From Budvicia diplopodorum (lineage in GTDB: Bacteria; Pseudomonadota; Gammaproteobacteria; Enterobacterales; Enterobacteriaceae): a stretch of DNA of 64,000 nucleotides. The DNA lies in assembly GCF_009800925.1 (NCBI RefSeq), contig NZ_WOYF01000003.1, positions 62,001 through 126,000 on the forward strand, written 5' to 3'. Each line of letters starts with the position of its first letter. Within the stretch, counting starts at the first letter, position 1. A model generated the notes under the pieces. It worked only from the letters and a program-made list of their open reading frames with translations, did not search any database and was not told the DNA's origin. This document shows, one piece after another, positions 27,019 to 35,115 of the stretch. Both the position numbers and the translations under genes were made by a program.

Positions 27019-27525
27019 ATGAAGAGAAATTCGTTAAGTATATTAGTGTTGTTTGTGCTGTTAGTTATTGGTGGAATTGTTATCAACAGGATGTATTTAA
27101 CCGATAACCGCCCGCAGGTAACCGAGTCCGTCGGGCGTCAGAGTTCTGATGTGCAACAACCAACTTCGGTAAATGCCCCTTCCGTCGATATTGACCGACT
27201 GACTCAACAAGGCGTAGTGGTTAATTATTTACGCCAGAATAATAGATTGCCTGATTATTACATCACTAAGAATAAGGCGCGCTCTCAAGGCTGGGATGCA
27301 CGCGATGGGAACCTATGTCGAGTATTACCCGGTAAAGCCATTGGCGGCGATCGATTTTCTAATCGCGAAGGCACTTTGCCTGAGGCTAAGGGGAGAATAT
27401 GGTTTGAGGCAGATATTAATTATCGCTGCGGCCACCGGGGAGCAGATCGACTGCTTTATTCCAGCGATGGTTTGATTTATGTAACTCATAATCACTATAA
27501 GCGTTTCACAGAGGTTAAGAACTAA
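27019..27525 (+). CDS. Barnase-like secreted ribonuclease
   Basis: Guanyl-specific ribonuclease of the barnase (N1/T1) family, 168 residues. An N-terminal hydrophobic segment (about residues 7-25) directs export or anchors the protein; the catalytic domain spans about residues 60-168. Comparison with Bacillus barnase shows its key residues: the general-base Glu in FEADINY, the Arg pair in HRGADRLLYSS and the general-acid His in HNHYKRF. It overlaps the barstar-like gene by one base (TAATG). The pair could be a toxin with its immunity protein, or a secreted nuclease protected from misfiring inside the cell. Confidence 0.88.
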   Translation: MKRNSLSILVLFVLLVIGGIVINRMYLTDNRPQVTESVGRQSSDVQQPTSVNAPSVDIDRLTQQGVVVNYLRQNNRLPDYYITKNKARSQGWDARDGNLCRVLPGKAIGGDRFSNREGTLPEAKGRIWFEADINYRCGHRGADRLLYSSDGLIYVTHNHYKRFTEVKN

Positions 27526-27791
27526 TGAGAAAGGTCATTTTTGATTTTTCAAATATTCATTCTATGTCCGATTTTTATCTCCAGTTTGTAGATTCATTTC
27601 TGCTGCCAGACTGGTTTGGTAATAATTTAGATGCATTATGGGATGTATTAACCGTACAAATTAACTTTCCGGTTGAAATAGTTTTTCTCCATTTTGATCG
27701 TTATTCATTAGATTTCCGTTCGCTATTTACGCTGCTTAAAGACGCAGAGGAAGACTTAGACGGCCAGCTTACCTTCTTGACCAGCCCGTAA
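27525..27791 (+). CDS. Barstar-family ribonuclease inhibitor (YhcO-like)
   Basis: Small intracellular inhibitor of 88 residues, close to barstar (about 90). The inhibitory helix is seen as NNLDALWDVL, with the two Asp residues equivalent to barstar Asp35 and Asp39 that fill the barnase active site. Translation is coupled to the barnase-like gene by the TAATG overlap. E. coli keeps only an orphan relative, YhcO, in the same tldD neighbourhood. Confidence 0.88.
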   Translation: MRKVIFDFSNIHSMSDFYLQFVDSFLLPDWFGNNLDALWDVLTVQINFPVEIVFLHFDRYSLDFRSLFTLLKDAEEDLDGQLTFLTSP

Positions 27792-27825: not shown

Positions 27826-29280
27826 TTAGCTGAACGTTTCTTTGGTTATTCCCAGCTTTTTCATTTTACTATAAAGGGTATTACTATTTACCTTAAGCAT
27901 TTGGGCTGCGCCACCGTCTCCGGATATTTTTCCATTGGTGTGCTTTAGCGTCTCAATAATATGCCGCTTTACTATCTCATTTAGCGATAAAATCGTGTGC
28001 TCTTTTGGCGACGTTTCCTGAGCGTATTCACCCGGCCTGATATCTAAAATGTCAGAGTGAGAGGCGATCAGTGCTTTTTCTAAGCGGGCTATTAGCTCGG
28101 TAATATTTCCCGGCCAGCCATAGGTTAATAATGATTGCTGAAAGCGTGTTGATAGCAGTGGCAGACGCCGTTGGTGTTTCTTACCCAGTTTTAGCAAATA
28201 ATGAGTGACCAGCTCAGGAATATCTTCCCGCCGTTGTCTGAGAGGTAATAGCGATATACATAGGCAAAATAGCCTATCTAAAGAACTGCAGGTTAATAGG
28301 TGCTCAGGATCTACCCGCGTTTGGTTTGGTAAGGTTCGGGTAATAATAATGCGGGGTAAACAACCCTGCTGTTGCCTTATCTGAATGTTCTTTATTAGCT
28401 GTTCTTGCAGGTTTTCATTCAGACACTCAATATTTTCAATCAGGAACGTCCCGTCTCCTGCATTATTCAGCAGAGTATCGCTGGTAATGCTTTGCAGAGA
28501 AAGTGTAGATATTTGGGGTGGCCTATTTGGTCGGTTGATAAACAGTGTCATCGTCTCGGCGTAAAAGACCGTAAGCGGTTTATCCGGGTGGTTAAATAAT
28601 TGATGAAGATGGTGGGCTAAGCGTGATTTTCCCGTTCCTTCTTCACCTTTAATCATAATGGGCTGTTGGCTTTGGGATATTGACGGTAGCTGGCAGAATA
28701 GTACCGATATCGGACTATTTTGCGCGGCAATAAATCCGGCCGGTAATATTTTTGTAGACTGAGACGTATGATGAGAATAGCGGGTGTGCTTATTCTCTTC
28801 ATTAATTAGCCCCAAATGCAGTAGCGCACGGGATGATAACAGCGAAAACGGGCCGCGTAGAGACTCAACCCGCTCGCCGTGTACCGGTTTGAATGCGTTA
28901 GTTTGATAGCTAAAAAACACCACCGCACCTAAACGTGTGTCGTCGACTTTTAATCGCATAACGATGGCGGACTTTACTTTGCGAAAGTGAGTTTTAATCA
29001 CGAAATCGGTTAATGGCTCATCGGATAGCTGGTTTAGAATGACGGTAGTAAAATTATCGCTGACGATAAAATTAGACAGAACGTGCTGTGGAATTGAAAG
29101 TACGTCGAGCTTCAGGTGTCCGCGATTTCGGGTGGCTAAAGCCAGAAACTGAATGCTTTGAATATCATCGCGATAATAATTAAGAAATATGCCGTCAGCG
29201 GGAAAATCTTCCGGAGCGGCTTTTACGCAGGCTGAAATAGCTTTATCTAAATGAAGCGTACTACATAAAGCTTCGTGCAT
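27826..29280 (-). CDS. GAF-AAA+-Fis regulator with a degenerate AAA+ domain
   Basis: Transcriptional regulator of 484 residues built like an NtrC-family enhancer-binding protein. A GAF-like sensory domain spans about 15-160, an AAA+ domain about 180-410 and a Fis-type helix-turn-helix about 432-480 (GGAAQMLKVNSNTLYSKMKKLG). Walker A is GEEGTGKS at 212-219. The GAFTGA loop that contacts sigma-54 is absent, the Walker B segment reads GTFLIENI instead of the usual FLDE, and the sensor II motif is NITEL without its Arg. It probably acts with sigma-70, like TyrR-type relatives. It lies downstream of the lyase/cytochrome operon, beyond a terminator, and is the likely regulator. Confidence 0.8.
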   Translation of the reverse strand: MHEALCSTLHLDKAISACVKAAPEDFPADGIFLNYYRDDIQSIQFLALATRNRGHLKLDVLSIPQHVLSNFIVSDNFTTVILNQLSDEPLTDFVIKTHFRKVKSAIVMRLKVDDTRLGAVVFFSYQTNAFKPVHGERVESLRGPFSLLSSRALLHLGLINEENKHTRYSHHTSQSTKILPAGFIAAQNSPISVLFCQLPSISQSQQPIMIKGEEGTGKSRLAHHLHQLFNHPDKPLTVFYAETMTLFINRPNRPPQISTLSLQSITSDTLLNNAGDGTFLIENIECLNENLQEQLIKNIQIRQQQGCLPRIIITRTLPNQTRVDPEHLLTCSSLDRLFCLCISLLPLRQRREDIPELVTHYLLKLGKKHQRRLPLLSTRFQQSLLTYGWPGNITELIARLEKALIASHSDILDIRPGEYAQETSPKEHTILSLNEIVKRHIIETLKHTNGKISGDGGAAQMLKVNSNTLYSKMKKLGITKETFS

Positions 29281-29644: not shown

Positions 29645-29679
29645 AAGCCCCTTTTATCGATATCAGATAAAAGGGGCTT
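29645..29679 (-). terminator. Terminator of the lyase/flavoprotein/cytochrome operon
   Basis: Perfect 14-pair stem (29645-29658 with 29666-29679), 7-base loop, followed on the minus strand by a T-rich tract. It sits 25 bases after the heptaheme cytochrome stop and separates the operon from the regulator gene. Confidence 0.88.
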
Positions 29680-29704: not shown

Positions 29705-31348
29705 TTACTCGTCGTCACTTTTTCCTCTATAACGGTGATAGCCACTAATCATGCCTTTAAACAACGCAGTGAGGCTATCTCCGGTGGTACAAAGATAAAG
29801 GTGGACCATCAGGAACAACAACGAGATCGCTGCCAGTCCGTAATGGGTATAAACAATAACCTGCTTGCCCGGAAGGCCAAATAGTATTGCTGGCGTATAG
29901 TTTGAATAGAGCATCAGTAATCCAGTAATTATCAGCAATGGCACGACTAAATACATCATAGTGACGTAGCCTAACTGTTGTAACGAATTAAATTTACTCT
30001 TCGCAGACGGGTGCTCCGGGTGTTCGGCACCAACAAAGATCCCGTATAGGTAATAACGAGTTTGTCGCAATATTTTGCCTAACAGGCCTTGGATCCGGAT
30101 GAGGTAATGATGGCCATTACCCAGCAGGTTAATCACAATAAACACCAGCCAGATAAAGCACAGCGCAAGGCCAACCAGGTTATGCAGGTCAACCCAGACT
30201 GACAGTTCGCCCTGACTGAAGTGCATACCAATGCCGGAAATTAGCAGCAAAATAAAGCACAGGGCGTTGAGACCGTGCCAGAGCCTGACCGGTAAGGTAT
30301 ACAGGTAGGTTTTATGCAATGACATACCGTTGGACAGTAAGCGACGTTTTCTGGCTGTCAGTAAACGAATCAGGCCGTGTCCCGCTAACAGCAGGAATAG
30401 GGCGGCTGCAATAGCGCTGATGGCTTTATCTAGTCGAATATTCCCGTTTGCGCCAATCATATAGGTGTTAGTAAACAGGTTTCCGTTAACCCACTGAATG
30501 CCTCTTTCGGCCGGAATTCCACCCAACGCGTTGAGCTTGTCCTGAAGTGCCTTGTCGTCAAACAGCCCTTGTTTGAGCAAACTGCCCGCCAGATTCTGCT
30601 CGGTCGGCGTAAAGTTTTGCCGTTGAGCCAGCAGTGATTCTGCGGTATGGCACTGGTTACAGGCCACGCTCTCTTTTGCCGGAGCAATGTTATGCAGCGT
30701 TGGATCTTTACTATCAGCATGACAGTCGATACAGCGCAGTGAGCTTAGGTGCAGAGGCGGATTTGGCAGAGATCGGTGGGTAAGATCCTGCTCGGTGACC
30801 TTTTTTCCACCCGACAGCGCTTTATATTCCGTTGGCCGGGTATGGCAGTCGGTACACATGGCGTTTGATGCCGCTATTTGTGGTACCGTCGGCTGGGTAA
30901 TGATGCCCGGCTGCATGGTGTGAGCGTCATGACAGGATTCACAGGTAAACTTACCCTGCTCACTCTTGGTTGCATGAACGCTCTTTTTGTACGCATCGGT
31001 TATCTTATGCTGCACCAGCCCATGACAGCTTTCACAGCTGTTGGATGCCACGGTGGTCTGAACGTGGGGCAGGGCTTCAAACCCGGCATTACCATTGACG
31101 CTCTGATGGCAGGCCACGCAGGGAACGCTAGCATGGACACTATCCTGATAGCTTTCATCGGTAATCAGTAGCTTGGCACCGGCATTGCCTGATGTGACCG
31201 CATGAATATCGCTGTCGTTATGGCAGCGCTGGCACTGAGCATTAGGATCGTTAGCGGCCTGAGCATAGAGGGAAAGAGTCAATAGCCCTAAGAGCGTCAC
31301 GGAGCGAAATGTGTACTCCAGCCATTTTGTTATGGATGCTGTCTTCAT
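29705..31348 (-). CDS. Heptaheme cytochrome c fused to a cytochrome b domain, probable quinol dehydrogenase
   Basis: Fusion protein of about 547 residues. After a signal segment (about 15-33) there are seven CXXCH heme c sites, at about residues 40, 78, 106, 137, 166, 207 and 231. A membrane helix follows near 309-330, and then a cytochrome b561/hydrogenase-type domain of four or so helices with conserved His in RLWHGLNALCF, LHNLVGLAL and VYTHYGLAAI. It would oxidise menaquinol in the membrane and pass electrons to the periplasmic hemes. It lies 8-10 bases after the tetraheme gene. The second of two adjacent ATGs has the better ribosome-site spacing. The domain call is strong; the quinol role is inferred. 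Confidence 0.85.
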   Translation of the reverse strand: MKTASITKWLEYTFRSVTLLGLLTLSLYAQAANDPNAQCQRCHNDSDIHAVTSGNAGAKLLITDESYQDSVHASVPCVACHQSVNGNAGFEALPHVQTTVASNSCESCHGLVQHKITDAYKKSVHATKSEQGKFTCESCHDAHTMQPGIITQPTVPQIAASNAMCTDCHTRPTEYKALSGGKKVTEQDLTHRSLPNPPLHLSSLRCIDCHADSKDPTLHNIAPAKESVACNQCHTAESLLAQRQNFTPTEQNLAGSLLKQGLFDDKALQDKLNALGGIPAERGIQWVNGNLFTNTYMIGANGNIRLDKAISAIAAALFLLLAGHGLIRLLTARKRRLLSNGMSLHKTYLYTLPVRLWHGLNALCFILLLISGIGMHFSQGELSVWVDLHNLVGLALCFIWLVFIVINLLGNGHHYLIRIQGLLGKILRQTRYYLYGIFVGAEHPEHPSAKSKFNSLQQLGYVTMMYLVVPLLIITGLLMLYSNYTPAILFGLPGKQVIVYTHYGLAAISLLFLMVHLYLCTTGDSLTALFKGMISGYHRYRGKSDDE

Positions 31349-31358
31349 CATATCCTCA

Positions 31359-31793
31359 TCATGGCTTCATATTGGGGTATTTGAACAAGTGACAGCTATT
31401 GCAATAGACTTTAGACGGCTGATGTTCGCTATGACACGCGCTGCACGGGACATCTTTTCCATAATGGATTGAGTTATGCGGGTTTGGCTCTGGATGCGCT
31501 TCGTCTGACTTAGGTTCCGTCATGGCGGCAACTTGGTCGGTGCTTCCGTGGCAGGTTAAGCAGCTCTTATCGTTCGGCGGCGTAGTCGGCGTTTTTGCAC
31601 CATGGCACAGCTGGCAGCTGGCCTGACTGTTCGTGGCTTCCAGCGGTTTATGGTAGGGTTTAATGGTGATGCCGCTGAGCTTTTGCTGAAAAGCTTTAGC
31701 GTCATTAGGCTGTTGCTCCGCAGTTTGTTGGGCCCACGTACTCAGGCTGAACAGCGCCAGTAAAATAATTGCGATGCGTTGATAAATAGACAT
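31359..31793 (-). CDS. Periplasmic tetraheme cytochrome c
   Basis: Small exported electron carrier of 144 residues with a signal peptide (cleavage near TWAQ, residues 20-22). Four CXXCH motifs lie at residues 60, 78, 117 and 131. The layout resembles the tetraheme domain of Shewanella-type flavocytochrome c3, which here is a separate polypeptide from the flavin subunit encoded upstream. It probably relays electrons from the heptaheme/cytochrome b protein to the flavoprotein. GGGAG precedes the start. Confidence 0.88.
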   Translation of the reverse strand: MSIYQRIAIILLALFSLSTWAQQTAEQQPNDAKAFQQKLSGITIKPYHKPLEATNSQASCQLCHGAKTPTTPPNDKSCLTCHGSTDQVAAMTEPKSDEAHPEPNPHNSIHYGKDVPCSACHSEHQPSKVYCNSCHLFKYPNMKP

Positions 31794-31808
31794 AGCTTCT
31801 CCCGTAGC

Positions 31809-33434
31809 TTAGGCGTTGTCTGGTACAGACGAGTTAAACAAAGGATCGGCTGGTCTAGTGGCAATATGTGCACCGGCAACTCGCCCCAAAACTAATCCAT
31901 CAGCGACGGCGCAGCTACCGAGCCGGCTGGCACCGTGCGGCCCTCCGGTCACTTCTCCTGCGGCATATAGGCCGGGGATAGGTTGCCCTGACATGGAGTC
32001 GATGACCTGAGCATTGACGTTAATCTGAACCCCACCCATGGTGTAGTGCACTTTAGGCCAAACCCGGACCGCAACGTAGGGGCCTTGCTCGATAGAAATT
32101 GCCCGGCTAACGTCTTTACCCATTGGGTCGCCGCTGCCTTTTTTCACCGCGGCATTATAGGTATCAACTTCGTTTTGCAGGTTTTCATACGGAATAGCGA
32201 AGTGGTCGGCCAGCTCTTTTAGCGTATCAAACTGCCAGGCGACGTTATATTTCATCGCGCCGGGCAGGCTTTGAGCCTGCTTAGCGCCTTCGAGATTAGT
32301 AAAGCAGACGGGATAAACCGGTTTTCCACTGGCGTCGCGCTGGGCAAGGATCGCATCTTCACGGGCCTTGCGGTCGGCGAGTTCATTGGTAAAACGTTTA
32401 CCGGTACGAACGTCAACCATAATTCCTTTCGGGTAGCCCGCAATGGTATTGAACTGAGAGACATAGCCGAAGCCTTTTTCATCCGGAGAACACCATGGGC
32501 CAAGCTGTATTAGATCCAGCTGAACCGGCGTAGCGCCGATTTTTAGCATTGCCATAATGCCTTCGGCCGTAGCGCCCGGATGGTTTGTTGTATCAACATC
32601 GGTGCCTAATTGAGGGTCTTGAAGCATCCGAAAGCGCAGGTCATTGCTGAATCCGCCGTTGCACATCACCACGCCTTTTCGGGCTCCGTAGCTTTTTAAT
32701 GTACCGCTCGATTCATCGGGGAAGCGATAATCGTCCTTAACCTGAATGCCGAGCACCGTTTGCTGCTCATTTTGAATAAAAGATTCAAACTTACAGCGGT
32801 TTTTGAATACCACTCCCATTTTTTGTGCTGACTGACGCAGGGGCATAACGATACCGGCACCCGAACTTTCAACGGTTTGTAAGGTGCGTGGAACGGAGTG
32901 TCCGCCGAAGTGTTGAACAAACGGTTTGTAGCGGACACCGTGCTGTAAAGTAAACTGATAGGCTTCCTGCGTGCCGTTAACCAATACGTGGAGCAGATCG
33001 TGATGATTCAGCCCGCGACCGGCTTTTAGCATGTCTTTGAACATCAGCTCCGGCGAGTCTTCAATGCCAGCCTCTTTTTGCAGCGGCGAACCGGCGACGG
33101 CAAACGCGCCGCCGTTAATGGTTGAGTTACCGCCGAATACGGCCATTTTATCGATCACCAAAACGCTTTGCCCTTTAGCTCTGGCTTCCAGCGCCGCCGC
33201 CAACCCGGCAAATCCGCTACCGACAATAATCACGTCATAAATTTGGTGGAACCGGGTTCTTCCCCCGGTTACCGTTTCAGGGATATTAACCGTCACAGGA
33301 GCAGCCTGCCCGGATTGGACCATGGCCAGTGACATCACTCCGCCGGTAGCTAATATCGCGCCGCGAGTTAAAAAGCGCCTGCGGGTGGGGTTATTAAGGC
33401 TATCCGGTGATAGCGTTTTTTTATCATTACTCAT
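31809..33434 (-). CDS. Tat-exported FAD flavoprotein reductase (fumarate/urocanate reductase family)
   Basis: Periplasmic flavoprotein of 541 residues. The Tat signal is TRRRFLTRG at 17-25, cleaved near SGQA. FAD binds through VGSGFAGLAAALEA (71-84). By comparison with flavocytochrome c3, the proton-donating Arg (Arg355 in ELADRKA), His463 (VHYTMGG) and Arg504 (SRLGS) are conserved, so a 2-enoate carboxylate is probably bound. The His and Thr that hold the second carboxylate of fumarate are not evident; the region reads LGPWCSP, with a Trp. This favours a monocarboxylic enoate such as urocanate or a cinnamate. The upstream in-frame start at 33494 is rejected because GAGGG precedes 33434. Confidence 0.85.
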   Translation of the reverse strand: MSNDKKTLSPDSLNNPTRRRFLTRGAILATGGVMSLAMVQSGQAAPVTVNIPETVTGGRTRFHQIYDVIIVGSGFAGLAAALEARAKGQSVLVIDKMAVFGGNSTINGGAFAVAGSPLQKEAGIEDSPELMFKDMLKAGRGLNHHDLLHVLVNGTQEAYQFTLQHGVRYKPFVQHFGGHSVPRTLQTVESSGAGIVMPLRQSAQKMGVVFKNRCKFESFIQNEQQTVLGIQVKDDYRFPDESSGTLKSYGARKGVVMCNGGFSNDLRFRMLQDPQLGTDVDTTNHPGATAEGIMAMLKIGATPVQLDLIQLGPWCSPDEKGFGYVSQFNTIAGYPKGIMVDVRTGKRFTNELADRKAREDAILAQRDASGKPVYPVCFTNLEGAKQAQSLPGAMKYNVAWQFDTLKELADHFAIPYENLQNEVDTYNAAVKKGSGDPMGKDVSRAISIEQGPYVAVRVWPKVHYTMGGVQINVNAQVIDSMSGQPIPGLYAAGEVTGGPHGASRLGSCAVADGLVLGRVAGAHIATRPADPLFNSSVPDNA

Positions 33435-33453
33435 ATCAATATCCCTCAGAACC

Positions 33454-35115
33454 TTACTTTTGGCCGTGATAGCTGGCAACAATCTCTGCACCATGTTTGA
33501 TATCGTCGCTGTAAATCCGGTCCTGATCGACGAAAGGAATCATTTTGCGGTAGGTCTGGTAGAGATCTTGAGTTTGTTTACTCATTTTGAGTTTTGGCAT
33601 GATTTCTTTTCTTAAATCAATAGCCTGAGTAGAGTGAAGCAGCTCAAGTCCGTAAATCACGCTGATATTATCAACAATGTGCTGTAGACGCTGAGAGGCG
33701 TACAGATTGTTGGTGAACGTATCTTCAATGGTGCCGGCCATTACCTGTCCGTCCAGCGATACAGGATTGGCTAAATCGACAATTTCAGACTGAAGTGCAA
33801 CCTGAGGCTTTTGAATGGCACCGAAAGCGTGTCCGGCATTTCCTTTAGCAGTCAGAAAGCGGCTGAGGCCGGTGAAGTGATCGTCAGATAGGTGTAAGGT
33901 GCGTTGCACGCTGTTATGAGATAAATGCGCCAGTGATAGCGATAGATGCTCAACGGCCAGCGCCAGCGGTAATGGCTCAAAGTTAGCGCTTGGATAGATT
34001 GCGCCTTTAATGTCTTTACCCTGTACGTAGTACTGTTTTACCTGACTGTTATCGGCATATTCTTCAGTGGCATTCAGAATAACCGCCGGGTTGTCGTCAG
34101 AGCTGTTCATCTGTATTGATAACATTTGTTGGGCGTCAGCCAGATCGCGTTTAGCTTCGTTTAACGCAAAAACCGTAGTGCGGAAAGAGAGCGGATCCTG
34201 AAGAGGACGGGTTTCATTTTTATCCCACAGATAAGAACCGGTCAGCGCGTCGCGAATATCTTTGGCGCTATCGGCTAAGCCGGGGAAGGGGCGAACCGCG
34301 ATAGTTTGCGGTAATACCGGCGAGATATTACCGTTCAGGCCTTCCAGACTCATGGCAAATACTACGGGAGTCATGTCAATAATCTGTTGAGCGTCCATAA
34401 TTGCTTTGGCAGAGTAAGCGGTAGAGATGGCGTTGGTTGATAAAATAGACAGGGCGTCTTTACCAACGGGTTCTAATGGCTTAATCGCGGCTTTGTTTAA
34501 GGCTTCTGCGGCAGGAACTTCTTTTCCATTTACCGTAACGCGCCACTCACCCATCATGGCATCACCGATATGTGAGGCTAACGTGATGTCGGCTTCACCC
34601 ACTGAACCGCGGGAAGGAACCACTGGGGTAATCCCCTGATTAAGGAATTTTTCATACAGTTCGGCTACGTAAGGCTGTGCTCCGGTAGCGCCGGTCAGCA
34701 TGGTATTTAAACGAATAACCATCGCAAGGCGAACCATATCAACCGGCATGTTGGGCCCAACGCCAGCCCCGTGGGCGCGTAATGCGTTGCGATTGAAGTC
34801 TTTTGAGGCTGCTAACACCTCCGGGCTGAGCTTGCCATGGGCATCAAAAAGCGACTTATCTTTGTTTAGCCCAACGCCTACGGTTAACCCATAAACAGGA
34901 ACGCCCTGTTCAGCCGCCAGCATTAGCAGTTGGTTTGATTTTTTCATTCGTTCCATTGCGGCCGGATCGATTTGAACATTTTTTCCTTCGGCCGCAACGG
35001 CCCAGGCTTCGGCAACCGTTAGGTTTTGGCCATTGAGTACCAGAAATTCCTGTGCCATTAAACAGCCGCTGAATAGCGAGCCTGCAATAAGTACTACCGC
35101 TGAATATTTTTTCAT
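33454..35115 (-). CDS. Exported aromatic amino-acid lyase (HAL/PAL) family protein lacking the MIO triad
   Basis: Protein of 553 residues in the histidine/phenylalanine ammonia-lyase superfamily, with an N-terminal signal peptide (about residues 1-22; SGC at 16-18 is a possible lipobox). Family marks are VYGLTVGVG (catalytic-type Tyr75), LQDPLSFR (305-312), SSDDNPAVIL and SANFEPLPLALAVEHL. Where the family has Ala-Ser-Gly, which cyclises to the MIO cofactor, this protein reads GSVGEADITLASH (170-182), so the triad is Glu174-Ala175-Asp176. The Asn of LLNGTQ also appears changed (ILSTNA). It is first in the operon, 19 bases before the flavoprotein. It may be a lyase with another mechanism, an isomerase-like relative, or a binding protein. 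Confidence 0.8.
   Translation of the reverse strand: MKKYSAVVLIAGSLFSGCLMAQEFLVLNGQNLTVAEAWAVAAEGKNVQIDPAAMERMKKSNQLLMLAAEQGVPVYGLTVGVGLNKDKSLFDAHGKLSPEVLAASKDFNRNALRAHGAGVGPNMPVDMVRLAMVIRLNTMLTGATGAQPYVAELYEKFLNQGITPVVPSRGSVGEADITLASHIGDAMMGEWRVTVNGKEVPAAEALNKAAIKPLEPVGKDALSILSTNAISTAYSAKAIMDAQQIIDMTPVVFAMSLEGLNGNISPVLPQTIAVRPFPGLADSAKDIRDALTGSYLWDKNETRPLQDPLSFRTTVFALNEAKRDLADAQQMLSIQMNSSDDNPAVILNATEEYADNSQVKQYYVQGKDIKGAIYPSANFEPLPLALAVEHLSLSLAHLSHNSVQRTLHLSDDHFTGLSRFLTAKGNAGHAFGAIQKPQVALQSEIVDLANPVSLDGQVMAGTIEDTFTNNLYASQRLQHIVDNISVIYGLELLHSTQAIDLRKEIMPKLKMSKQTQDLYQTYRKMIPFVDQDRIYSDDIKHGAEIVASYHGQK

Follow-up and report, generated by a model that had tools for sequence, protein, structure and literature searches.

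Ergothionase has been described from Treponema denticola (Td; 6s7j and 6s7q), and such enzymes are reported to work without 4-methylideneimidazole-5-one (MIO) (accessible part of PMC13405746). The flavin adenine dinucleotide (FAD) reductase UrdA is known from Shewanella oneidensis (6t85; accessible part of PMC7921117). Here we analysed a 64,000-nucleotide stretch of Budvicia diplopodorum DNA, called the window, whose positions are used for numbering. Four genes on its minus strand (29705-35115) form an operon for a lyase, a flavoprotein, a tetraheme cytochrome and a heptaheme-cytochrome b fusion. Judged from sequence, it is likely that they constitute an ergothioneine-respiration module, with every step from lyase to reductase in the periplasm.

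The window lyase shares with Td ergothionase the fold, the lack of an MIO triad and the motifs NKD, GExDI, QK and IED. It differs in carrying a signal peptide and in its linkage to a reductase; the Td protein is alignable from residue 2 and has no signal peptide. The window flavoprotein resembles UrdA as an FAD reductase with the catalytic Arg/His/Arg residues and the equivalent of Phe245, but its pocket is replaced, it has a twin-Arg export signal and its tetraheme cytochrome is a separate protein. UrdA presumably has a flavin mononucleotide (FMN)-binding domain; Pfam found no FMN-binding domain in the window flavoprotein. A flavoprotein with a separate tetraheme cytochrome is also present in Mrd/Mcc and in Wolinella FccA, where FccA has a twin-arginine translocation (Tat) signal and the heme subunit a Sec signal (accessible part of PMC4427408). 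The window matches these systems in its heme-free, twin-Arg flavoprotein and separate cytochrome. They have no lyase, however, and the same part of that paper mentions no heptaheme-cytochrome b fusion. The C-terminal half of the fusion is like PhsC, the thiosulfate reductase cytochrome b (PRK15006), in front of which the window protein adds seven c-hemes.

Thiourocanate has been placed in two other settings. In alphaproteobacterial ergothioneine utilisation, a homologous lyase with Lys436 is present and thiourocanate is presumably hydrated and degraded, whereas the window module is predicted to reduce it in the periplasm. In cross-feeding from Clostridium symbiosum to Bacteroides xylanisolvens, ergothioneine is converted to thiourocanate, which is reported to support the growth and ATP synthesis of the second species, a gut anaerobe (Zhou 2025, as cited in the accessible part of PMC13405746). 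That chain requires two organisms; in the window, lyase and reductase are in one operon and both have export signals. Thiourocanate reportedly serves as an electron acceptor in the cross-feeding. Among the matches listed in a search of open PMC titles and abstracts, none joins ergothionase to a reductase in one organism, which is no proof of absence in print. Ergothionase and thiourocanate-supported growth are known; the presence of both steps in one exported operon appears to be new.

The lyase and the flavoprotein

The preliminary description of the operon placed an exported lyase of the histidine/phenylalanine ammonia-lyase (HAL/PAL) family at its head. Membership in the superfamily holds (PF00221, 423 bits), but ammonia-lyase chemistry does not. 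In a phmmer search of the PDB, Td ergothionase 6s7j came first with 322.4 bits and every other structure scored at most 165.1. An AlphaFold model of the lyase (mean predicted local distance difference test score 86.3) also placed ergothionase at rank 1 in a fold comparison (Z 42.7, root-mean-square deviation 2.3 over 488 residues, 38% identity over the fold alignment), followed by HAL at 39.6. The NCBIfam hutH model gave 274.7 bits and did not reach its cut-off of 539.15.

We aligned 64 clade sequences, the window lyase included, with Td ergothionase and 25 PF00221 controls of the same order. The Ala-Ser-Gly triad from which MIO is formed is absent from all 63 clade sequences that cover the site, the window among them, while all 25 controls have Ala and Ser there. 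The window reads GEA-D; Glu174 is found in 60 and Ala175 in 62 of the 63 sequences, and one residue is deleted. Asn84, Lys85 and Asp86 are present in 62/62 clade sequences and Lys436 in 62 of 64, all as in Td ergothionase. In the controls, position 84 is Leu, 85 is Ala or Cys, 86 is mostly Asn or Ser, and 436 is Val or Tyr. The window lyase thus carries Asn84, Lys85, Glu174 and Lys436, the residues that set Td ergothionase apart from HutH. On these residues, it is a HAL/PAL superfamily member and not an ammonia-lyase. With no triad, it is unlikely to act on histidine, phenylalanine or tyrosine.

The lyase has a Sec-type signal peptide by eye. Signal peptides were called by motif and a simple count of hydrophobic stretches, with no trained predictor. 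A scan of named genomes for the lyase gave 59 loci, every one with a Lys436 lyase, and 55 of these lyases have a hydrophobic N-terminal stretch (2/25 in the controls). The other four comprise two at a contig edge, one split gene and L053, which is signal-like by eye. The closest lyases are from Budvicia aquatica (91%), Limnobaculum allomyrinae (86%) and Leminorella grimontii (82%), and a flanking regulator is common to their loci. The window genome has one PF00221 protein only.

The flavoprotein was first described as a Tat-exported member of the fumarate/urocanate reductase family. Its catalytic residues and its RRRFL motif bear this out, but its pocket is not that of UrdA. It matches FAD_binding_2 with 269 bits and NCBIfam flavo_cyto_c with 491.5 bits. 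Its best solved relative is UrdA 6t85 (236 bits), with flavocytochrome c fumarate reductases at 185-218. Counting residues from the 561-residue open reading frame (ORF), Arg375, His483 and Arg524 are present in 52/52 lyase-linked flavoproteins and correspond to the catalytic Arg411, His520 and Arg560 of UrdA. UrdA Phe245 is kept as Phe196. The rest of the pocket is almost equally constant and different from UrdA at every position: Ala130 and Gln194 (52/52) stand for Glu177 and Phe243, Asn349 (51/52) for Arg390, and Gly332, Gln347 and Thr350 (52/52) for Tyr373, Asp388 and Phe391 at the imidazole end. Gln347 alone says little, since Asp388 is Asn or Gln in some gut UrdA (accessible part of PMC7921117). 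The differing pocket ruled out UrdA as an identity for the flavoprotein. The window genome contains no second close relative of it, the sole other match being short (33 bits). Twin-Arg-type flavoproteins with a tetraheme gene and no lyase nearby are found in Shewanella (L159-L165, L172).

Gene linkage and residue 436

The gene set of the preliminary description recurs in other genomes. The lyase, flavoprotein and small tetraheme cytochrome genes stand together in 50 of the 59 loci and all four genes in 10; the loci with the cytochrome b fusion are all enterobacterial. Every one of the 50 flavoprotein loci has a small cytochrome gene, 49 with four heme motifs and one with two. Of 117 Shewanella genomes, 40 have a first-tier flavoprotein (>600 bits; next 495.4), and the first-tier lyases (>636 bits, with a broken copy at 427 also counted) are in exactly these 40. 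The two matches are separated by 75-137 bp in 39 of these and by 596 bp at the broken copy. In Shewanella marina, the lyase gene is split into two ORFs (L061, L191) and the tetraheme ORF of L061 has only two heme motifs; this may be a decaying copy or an assembly error. The lyase-reductase set was also found in the gut genera Sutterella, Parasutterella, Turicimonas and Mesosutterella, and in Citrobacter and Hafnia. An even sample of the class contained the lyase in 3/369 genomes and the flavoprotein in 1/369, and a sample of the order the lyase in 3/295; at these counts the module is rare. A near-identity search of complete E. coli genomes with the whole L009 module gave no match.

Nine loci remain. 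Six of them, all alphaproteobacterial, have a urocanase-like gene, which exceeds the NCBIfam thiourocanate hydratase cut-off (930) in 6/6 with scores of 1030-1046. In L055, two further neighbours score as the ergothioneine-utilisation proteins ErtD and ErtE. A tblastn search of the nine loci found no relative of the flavoprotein, UrdA, the tetraheme cytochrome or the cytochrome b. In Acetomicrobium (L050:1897-6932), the lyase gene is preceded by genes encoding a molybdenum hydroxylase and a DcuC-type carrier, which may point to a different fate of thiourocanate. A second lyase copy in Sutterella seckii (L047:1-1569) has Asp at 436 and lies ahead of a gene for a major facilitator superfamily transporter.

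Relatives with another residue at 436 have other partners. A second lyase, about 44% identical, with Asn436 and GLS-D, is present in 11 Shewanella genomes (L170, L173-L181, L188, L202). A flavoprotein with the UrdA pocket is found in its locus in 11/11, with an identical pocket in 10 and one change in G675. The UrdA-type gene is the next gene in six genomes and about 4-5 kb off in G281, G713, G732 and G683. A third lyase, with Gln436, occurs in nine Shewanella genomes (L171, L182-L187, L189, L168/L190; L189 and L190 complete L167 and L168), and a reductase with a third, LILGFAD-type pocket and a tetraheme gene are present in 9/9 of its loci. A quick tree gathers the lyase-linked flavoproteins into a single group (95) and puts UrdA of MR-1 with those linked to Asn436 lyases (100). 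In the lyase tree, a long-branch warning applies to the union of the Asn436 group with the Gln436 group.

A distant search with the L009 lyase led to another relative, which is present over its full length in 142 of 5426 complete E. coli genomes. The one translated, from E. coli WB61, is 56% identical to the window lyase and has Ile436, a signal-like N-terminus and no MIO triad. In 3/3 regions read, the gene comes after hutU, a permease gene, a HutD-family gene, hutI and hutG, and no hutH is annotated in these regions. By score, WB61 hutU encodes a true urocanase (934 bits; 670 on the thiourocanate model). The product of the hut-linked gene is a candidate hercynine lyase on its sequence and neighbours. 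An old report is said to have found ergothionase activity in E. coli, on which this relative may bear. A relative on S. meliloti pSymA has ABC-transporter genes nearby, and NCBIfam found no reductase among the seven neighbours scanned.

Thiourocanate enzymes are thus the partners of Lys436 lyases, and urocanate enzymes those of Asn436 or Ile436 lyases. We infer that the Asn436 and Ile436 relatives take hercynine, from which loss of trimethylamine would give urocanate. We lean slightly towards a broader proposal, in which a family of exported MIO-less lyases turns betaines into enoates where these are used, each with a pocket-matched reductase: ergothioneine to thiourocanate with Lys436, hercynine to urocanate with Asn436 and UrdA, and a third betaine with Gln436 and the LILGFAD-type reductase. 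Betaines would then be pro-electron acceptors, and Shewanella may respire urocanate derived from hercynine instead of histidine.

Proposed pathway and its alternatives

We propose that the exported lyase, a putative ergothionase by homology, residues and neighbours, removes trimethylamine from ergothioneine in the periplasm to give thiourocanate. The Tat-exported FAD protein would then reduce the thiourocanate double bond, yielding 2-thioxo-imidazole propionate; this substrate is suggested by the lyase partner. In the architecture that the operon encodes, (demethyl)menaquinol would give its electrons to the PhsC-type cytochrome b, which would pass them along its seven hemes to the tetraheme cytochrome and on to FAD. 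The module is thus predicted to carry out periplasmic enoate respiration with an acceptor made on site from a betaine. The outline of the preliminary description, an enoate both made and respired in the periplasm, is retained, but the amino-acid substrate is replaced by ergothioneine and the enoate by thiourocanate, both predicted.

The 548-residue fusion scores 224.6 bits on PRK15006 (cut-off 204) through its C-terminal half, and Pfam finds Cytochrome_C7 (PF14522) and Ni_hydr_CYTB (PF01292) in it. No match to PF03264, the CymA/NapC family, was found in this protein at E 0.001. A full-length relative occurs once each in 6/6 enterobacterial genomes and in 0/8 genomes of Shewanella, Ferrimonas, Paraferrimonas and Sutterellaceae; other matches in these 14 genomes cover the cytochrome b half only (residues 313-547). 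The earlier suggestion that the fusion could replace a CymA-type quinol dehydrogenase fits this distribution. PF03264 proteins are present in 14/14 genomes, so their presence cannot show that CymA is used, and a CymA/NapC donor is possible. In Shewanella and Sutterellaceae, where the fusion is absent, the tetraheme cytochrome probably receives its electrons from a NapC/CymA-type protein.

Several observations weigh against the ergothioneine assignment. Ergothionase leads HAL by a narrow margin in the fold comparison, and the whole superfamily shares this fold. Glu464 is present in 64/64 clade sequences but also in 25/25 controls and is no marker. The tree places Td ergothionase outside all exported lyases, as their sister on a long branch (1.59), and therefore gives no indication of the exported subgroup in which ergothioneine is retained as the substrate; support for the window lyase's own group is only 79. 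The flavoprotein is closer to paralogues from Shewanella, some of them lyase-linked and some not, than to UrdA, and its substrate was therefore read from the lyase partner. Three of the 59 Lys436 loci (L050, L057, L060) have neither reductase nor hydratase. In G675 (L181), the Asn436 lyase adjoins a reductase of the third type, with the UrdA-like gene 3.4 kb off, which is ambiguous. The Lys436 rule itself is a correlation with gene neighbours. The window regulator, described below, lacks the GAFTGA loop.

We considered three other accounts of the operon. An exported histidine, phenylalanine or tyrosine ammonia-lyase that feeds a urocanate or cinnamate reductase would agree with PF00221 membership and with the flavoprotein being closest, among solved structures, to UrdA. 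The MIO site, at which the triad is absent from 63/63 clade sequences while 25/25 controls have Ala and Ser, was the ground on which we rejected this reading; the hutH score far under the cut-off and the change of all three of Tyr373, Asp388 and Phe391 also speak against it, and we regard it as extremely improbable. A lyase for another betaine, such as hercynine or ergothioneine sulfonate, with the matching enoate passed to the reductase, gains from the relatives that appear to be of this kind, those with Asn436 beside UrdA-type reductases and those with Ile436 in hut operons. But Lys436 and the GExDI motif are retained in the window lyase as in Td ergothionase, thiourocanate hydratase genes lie next to its Lys436 relatives, and the flavoprotein has a pocket unlike that of UrdA. 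These points leave the sulfonate untouched. We consider this account unlikely.

The module could also serve to scavenge nitrogen or sulfur, to detoxify or to keep redox balance, with no energy conserved by respiration, as the catabolic cluster around the alphaproteobacterial lyase relatives might suggest. The four window genes include no catabolic one, however, and 11 c-hemes and a PhsC-type cytochrome b tie the module to the membrane, which makes this function very improbable. Ergothioneine respiration accounts best for the lyase residues and the gene linkage taken together.

If ergothioneine respiration is correct, a single bacterium rather than a two-species chain respires a dietary, fungal (mushroom-derived) antioxidant and releases trimethylamine. 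The Lys436 rule, if true, separates ergothioneine-type from urocanate-type lyases and is directly usable on genomes. The best NCBIfam name for such lyases is histidine ammonia-lyase, below the cut-off. The accessible part of PMC13405746 describes ergothionase as restricted to few genera and warns of poorly annotated homologues. As gut genera carry the set and such lyases are best named histidine ammonia-lyase, the gut's loss of ergothioneine and its output of trimethylamine may be undercounted. Sutterella is reported to be higher in colitic mice without OCTN1, an ergothioneine uptake protein (accessible part of PMC11630256); next to the Sutterella module found here, this report is suggestive only.

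Operon layout and flanking genes

The coordinates are collected in the table. As first described, the four genes point the same way with short gaps and a terminator: the ORFs are intact, without internal stops, and a purine-rich stretch precedes every start. The probable start of the flavoprotein is a Met that lies 20 codons into the listed ORF, at 33434, and precedes the twin-Arg motif. With this start, the gene no longer overlaps that of the lyase, and the intergenic gaps are 19, 15 and 7 bp. The hairpin is the longest among 10 terminator-like sites of the region, a number near the shuffled mean of 7.5. A sigma-70 scan gave three sites, below the shuffled mean of 7.7. The count of 11 heme c sites in the preliminary description was confirmed by the CXXCH motifs of the two cytochromes; the flavoprotein has none. 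Compared with the Budvicia aquatica copies, the ratio of nonsynonymous to synonymous substitution rates (dN/dS) is 0.036 for the lyase, 0.054 for the flavoprotein and 0.078 for the cytochrome b gene; dS is saturated for the tetraheme gene.

Table. Features of the window operon, its regulator gene and the E. coli lyase relatives
Feature	Position	Strand	Basis or remark
Exported MIO-less aromatic lyase, 553 residues, predicted ergothionase	33454..35115	-	6s7j best solved relative; PF00221
Glu174-Ala175, at the position of the HAL MIO Ala-Ser; Gly deleted	34591..34596	-	Alignment; codons read
Lys436 of the lyase, as in Td ergothionase	33808..33810	-	Alignment; Asn/Gln/Ile in relatives with other partners
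Tat-exported FAD reductase, 541 residues, predicted thiourocanate reductase	31809..33434	-	flavo_cyto_c; UrdA 6t85; catalytic residues
Tetraheme cytochrome c, 144 residues, 4 CXXCH, predicted electron donor to the flavoprotein	31359..31793	-	Cytochrom_c3_2
Heptaheme cytochrome c fused to PhsC-type cytochrome b, 548 residues, 7 CXXCH, predicted quinol dehydrogenase	29705..31351	-	PF01292, PF14522, PRK15006
Terminator-like hairpin 3' of the operon	29645..29679	-	14 pairs, 6 G-C, T-rich tail
Linked AAA-type regulator, weak sigma-54 domain, Walker A kept, GAFTGA absent	27826..29280	-	Linked family in 48/59 loci
E. coli hut-linked lyase relatives	L198:8839-10509; L200:8001-9671; L201:8001-9671		

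The regulator family always occurs with the flavoprotein (48 of its 50 loci), and the AAA-type regulator seems to belong to the set as a fifth gene. On this linkage, it probably controls the operon. The sigma-54 domain is strong in the Shewanella and Sutterella regulators scanned and weak in those of the window and L009. GAFTGA is present in 31 of the 48 regulators, namely all 28 from Shewanella, both from Ferrimonas and one from Sutterella, and in no enterobacterial one. Genes for a Barnase-like ribonuclease and Barstar lie beside the regulator gene on the plus strand (27019-27791).

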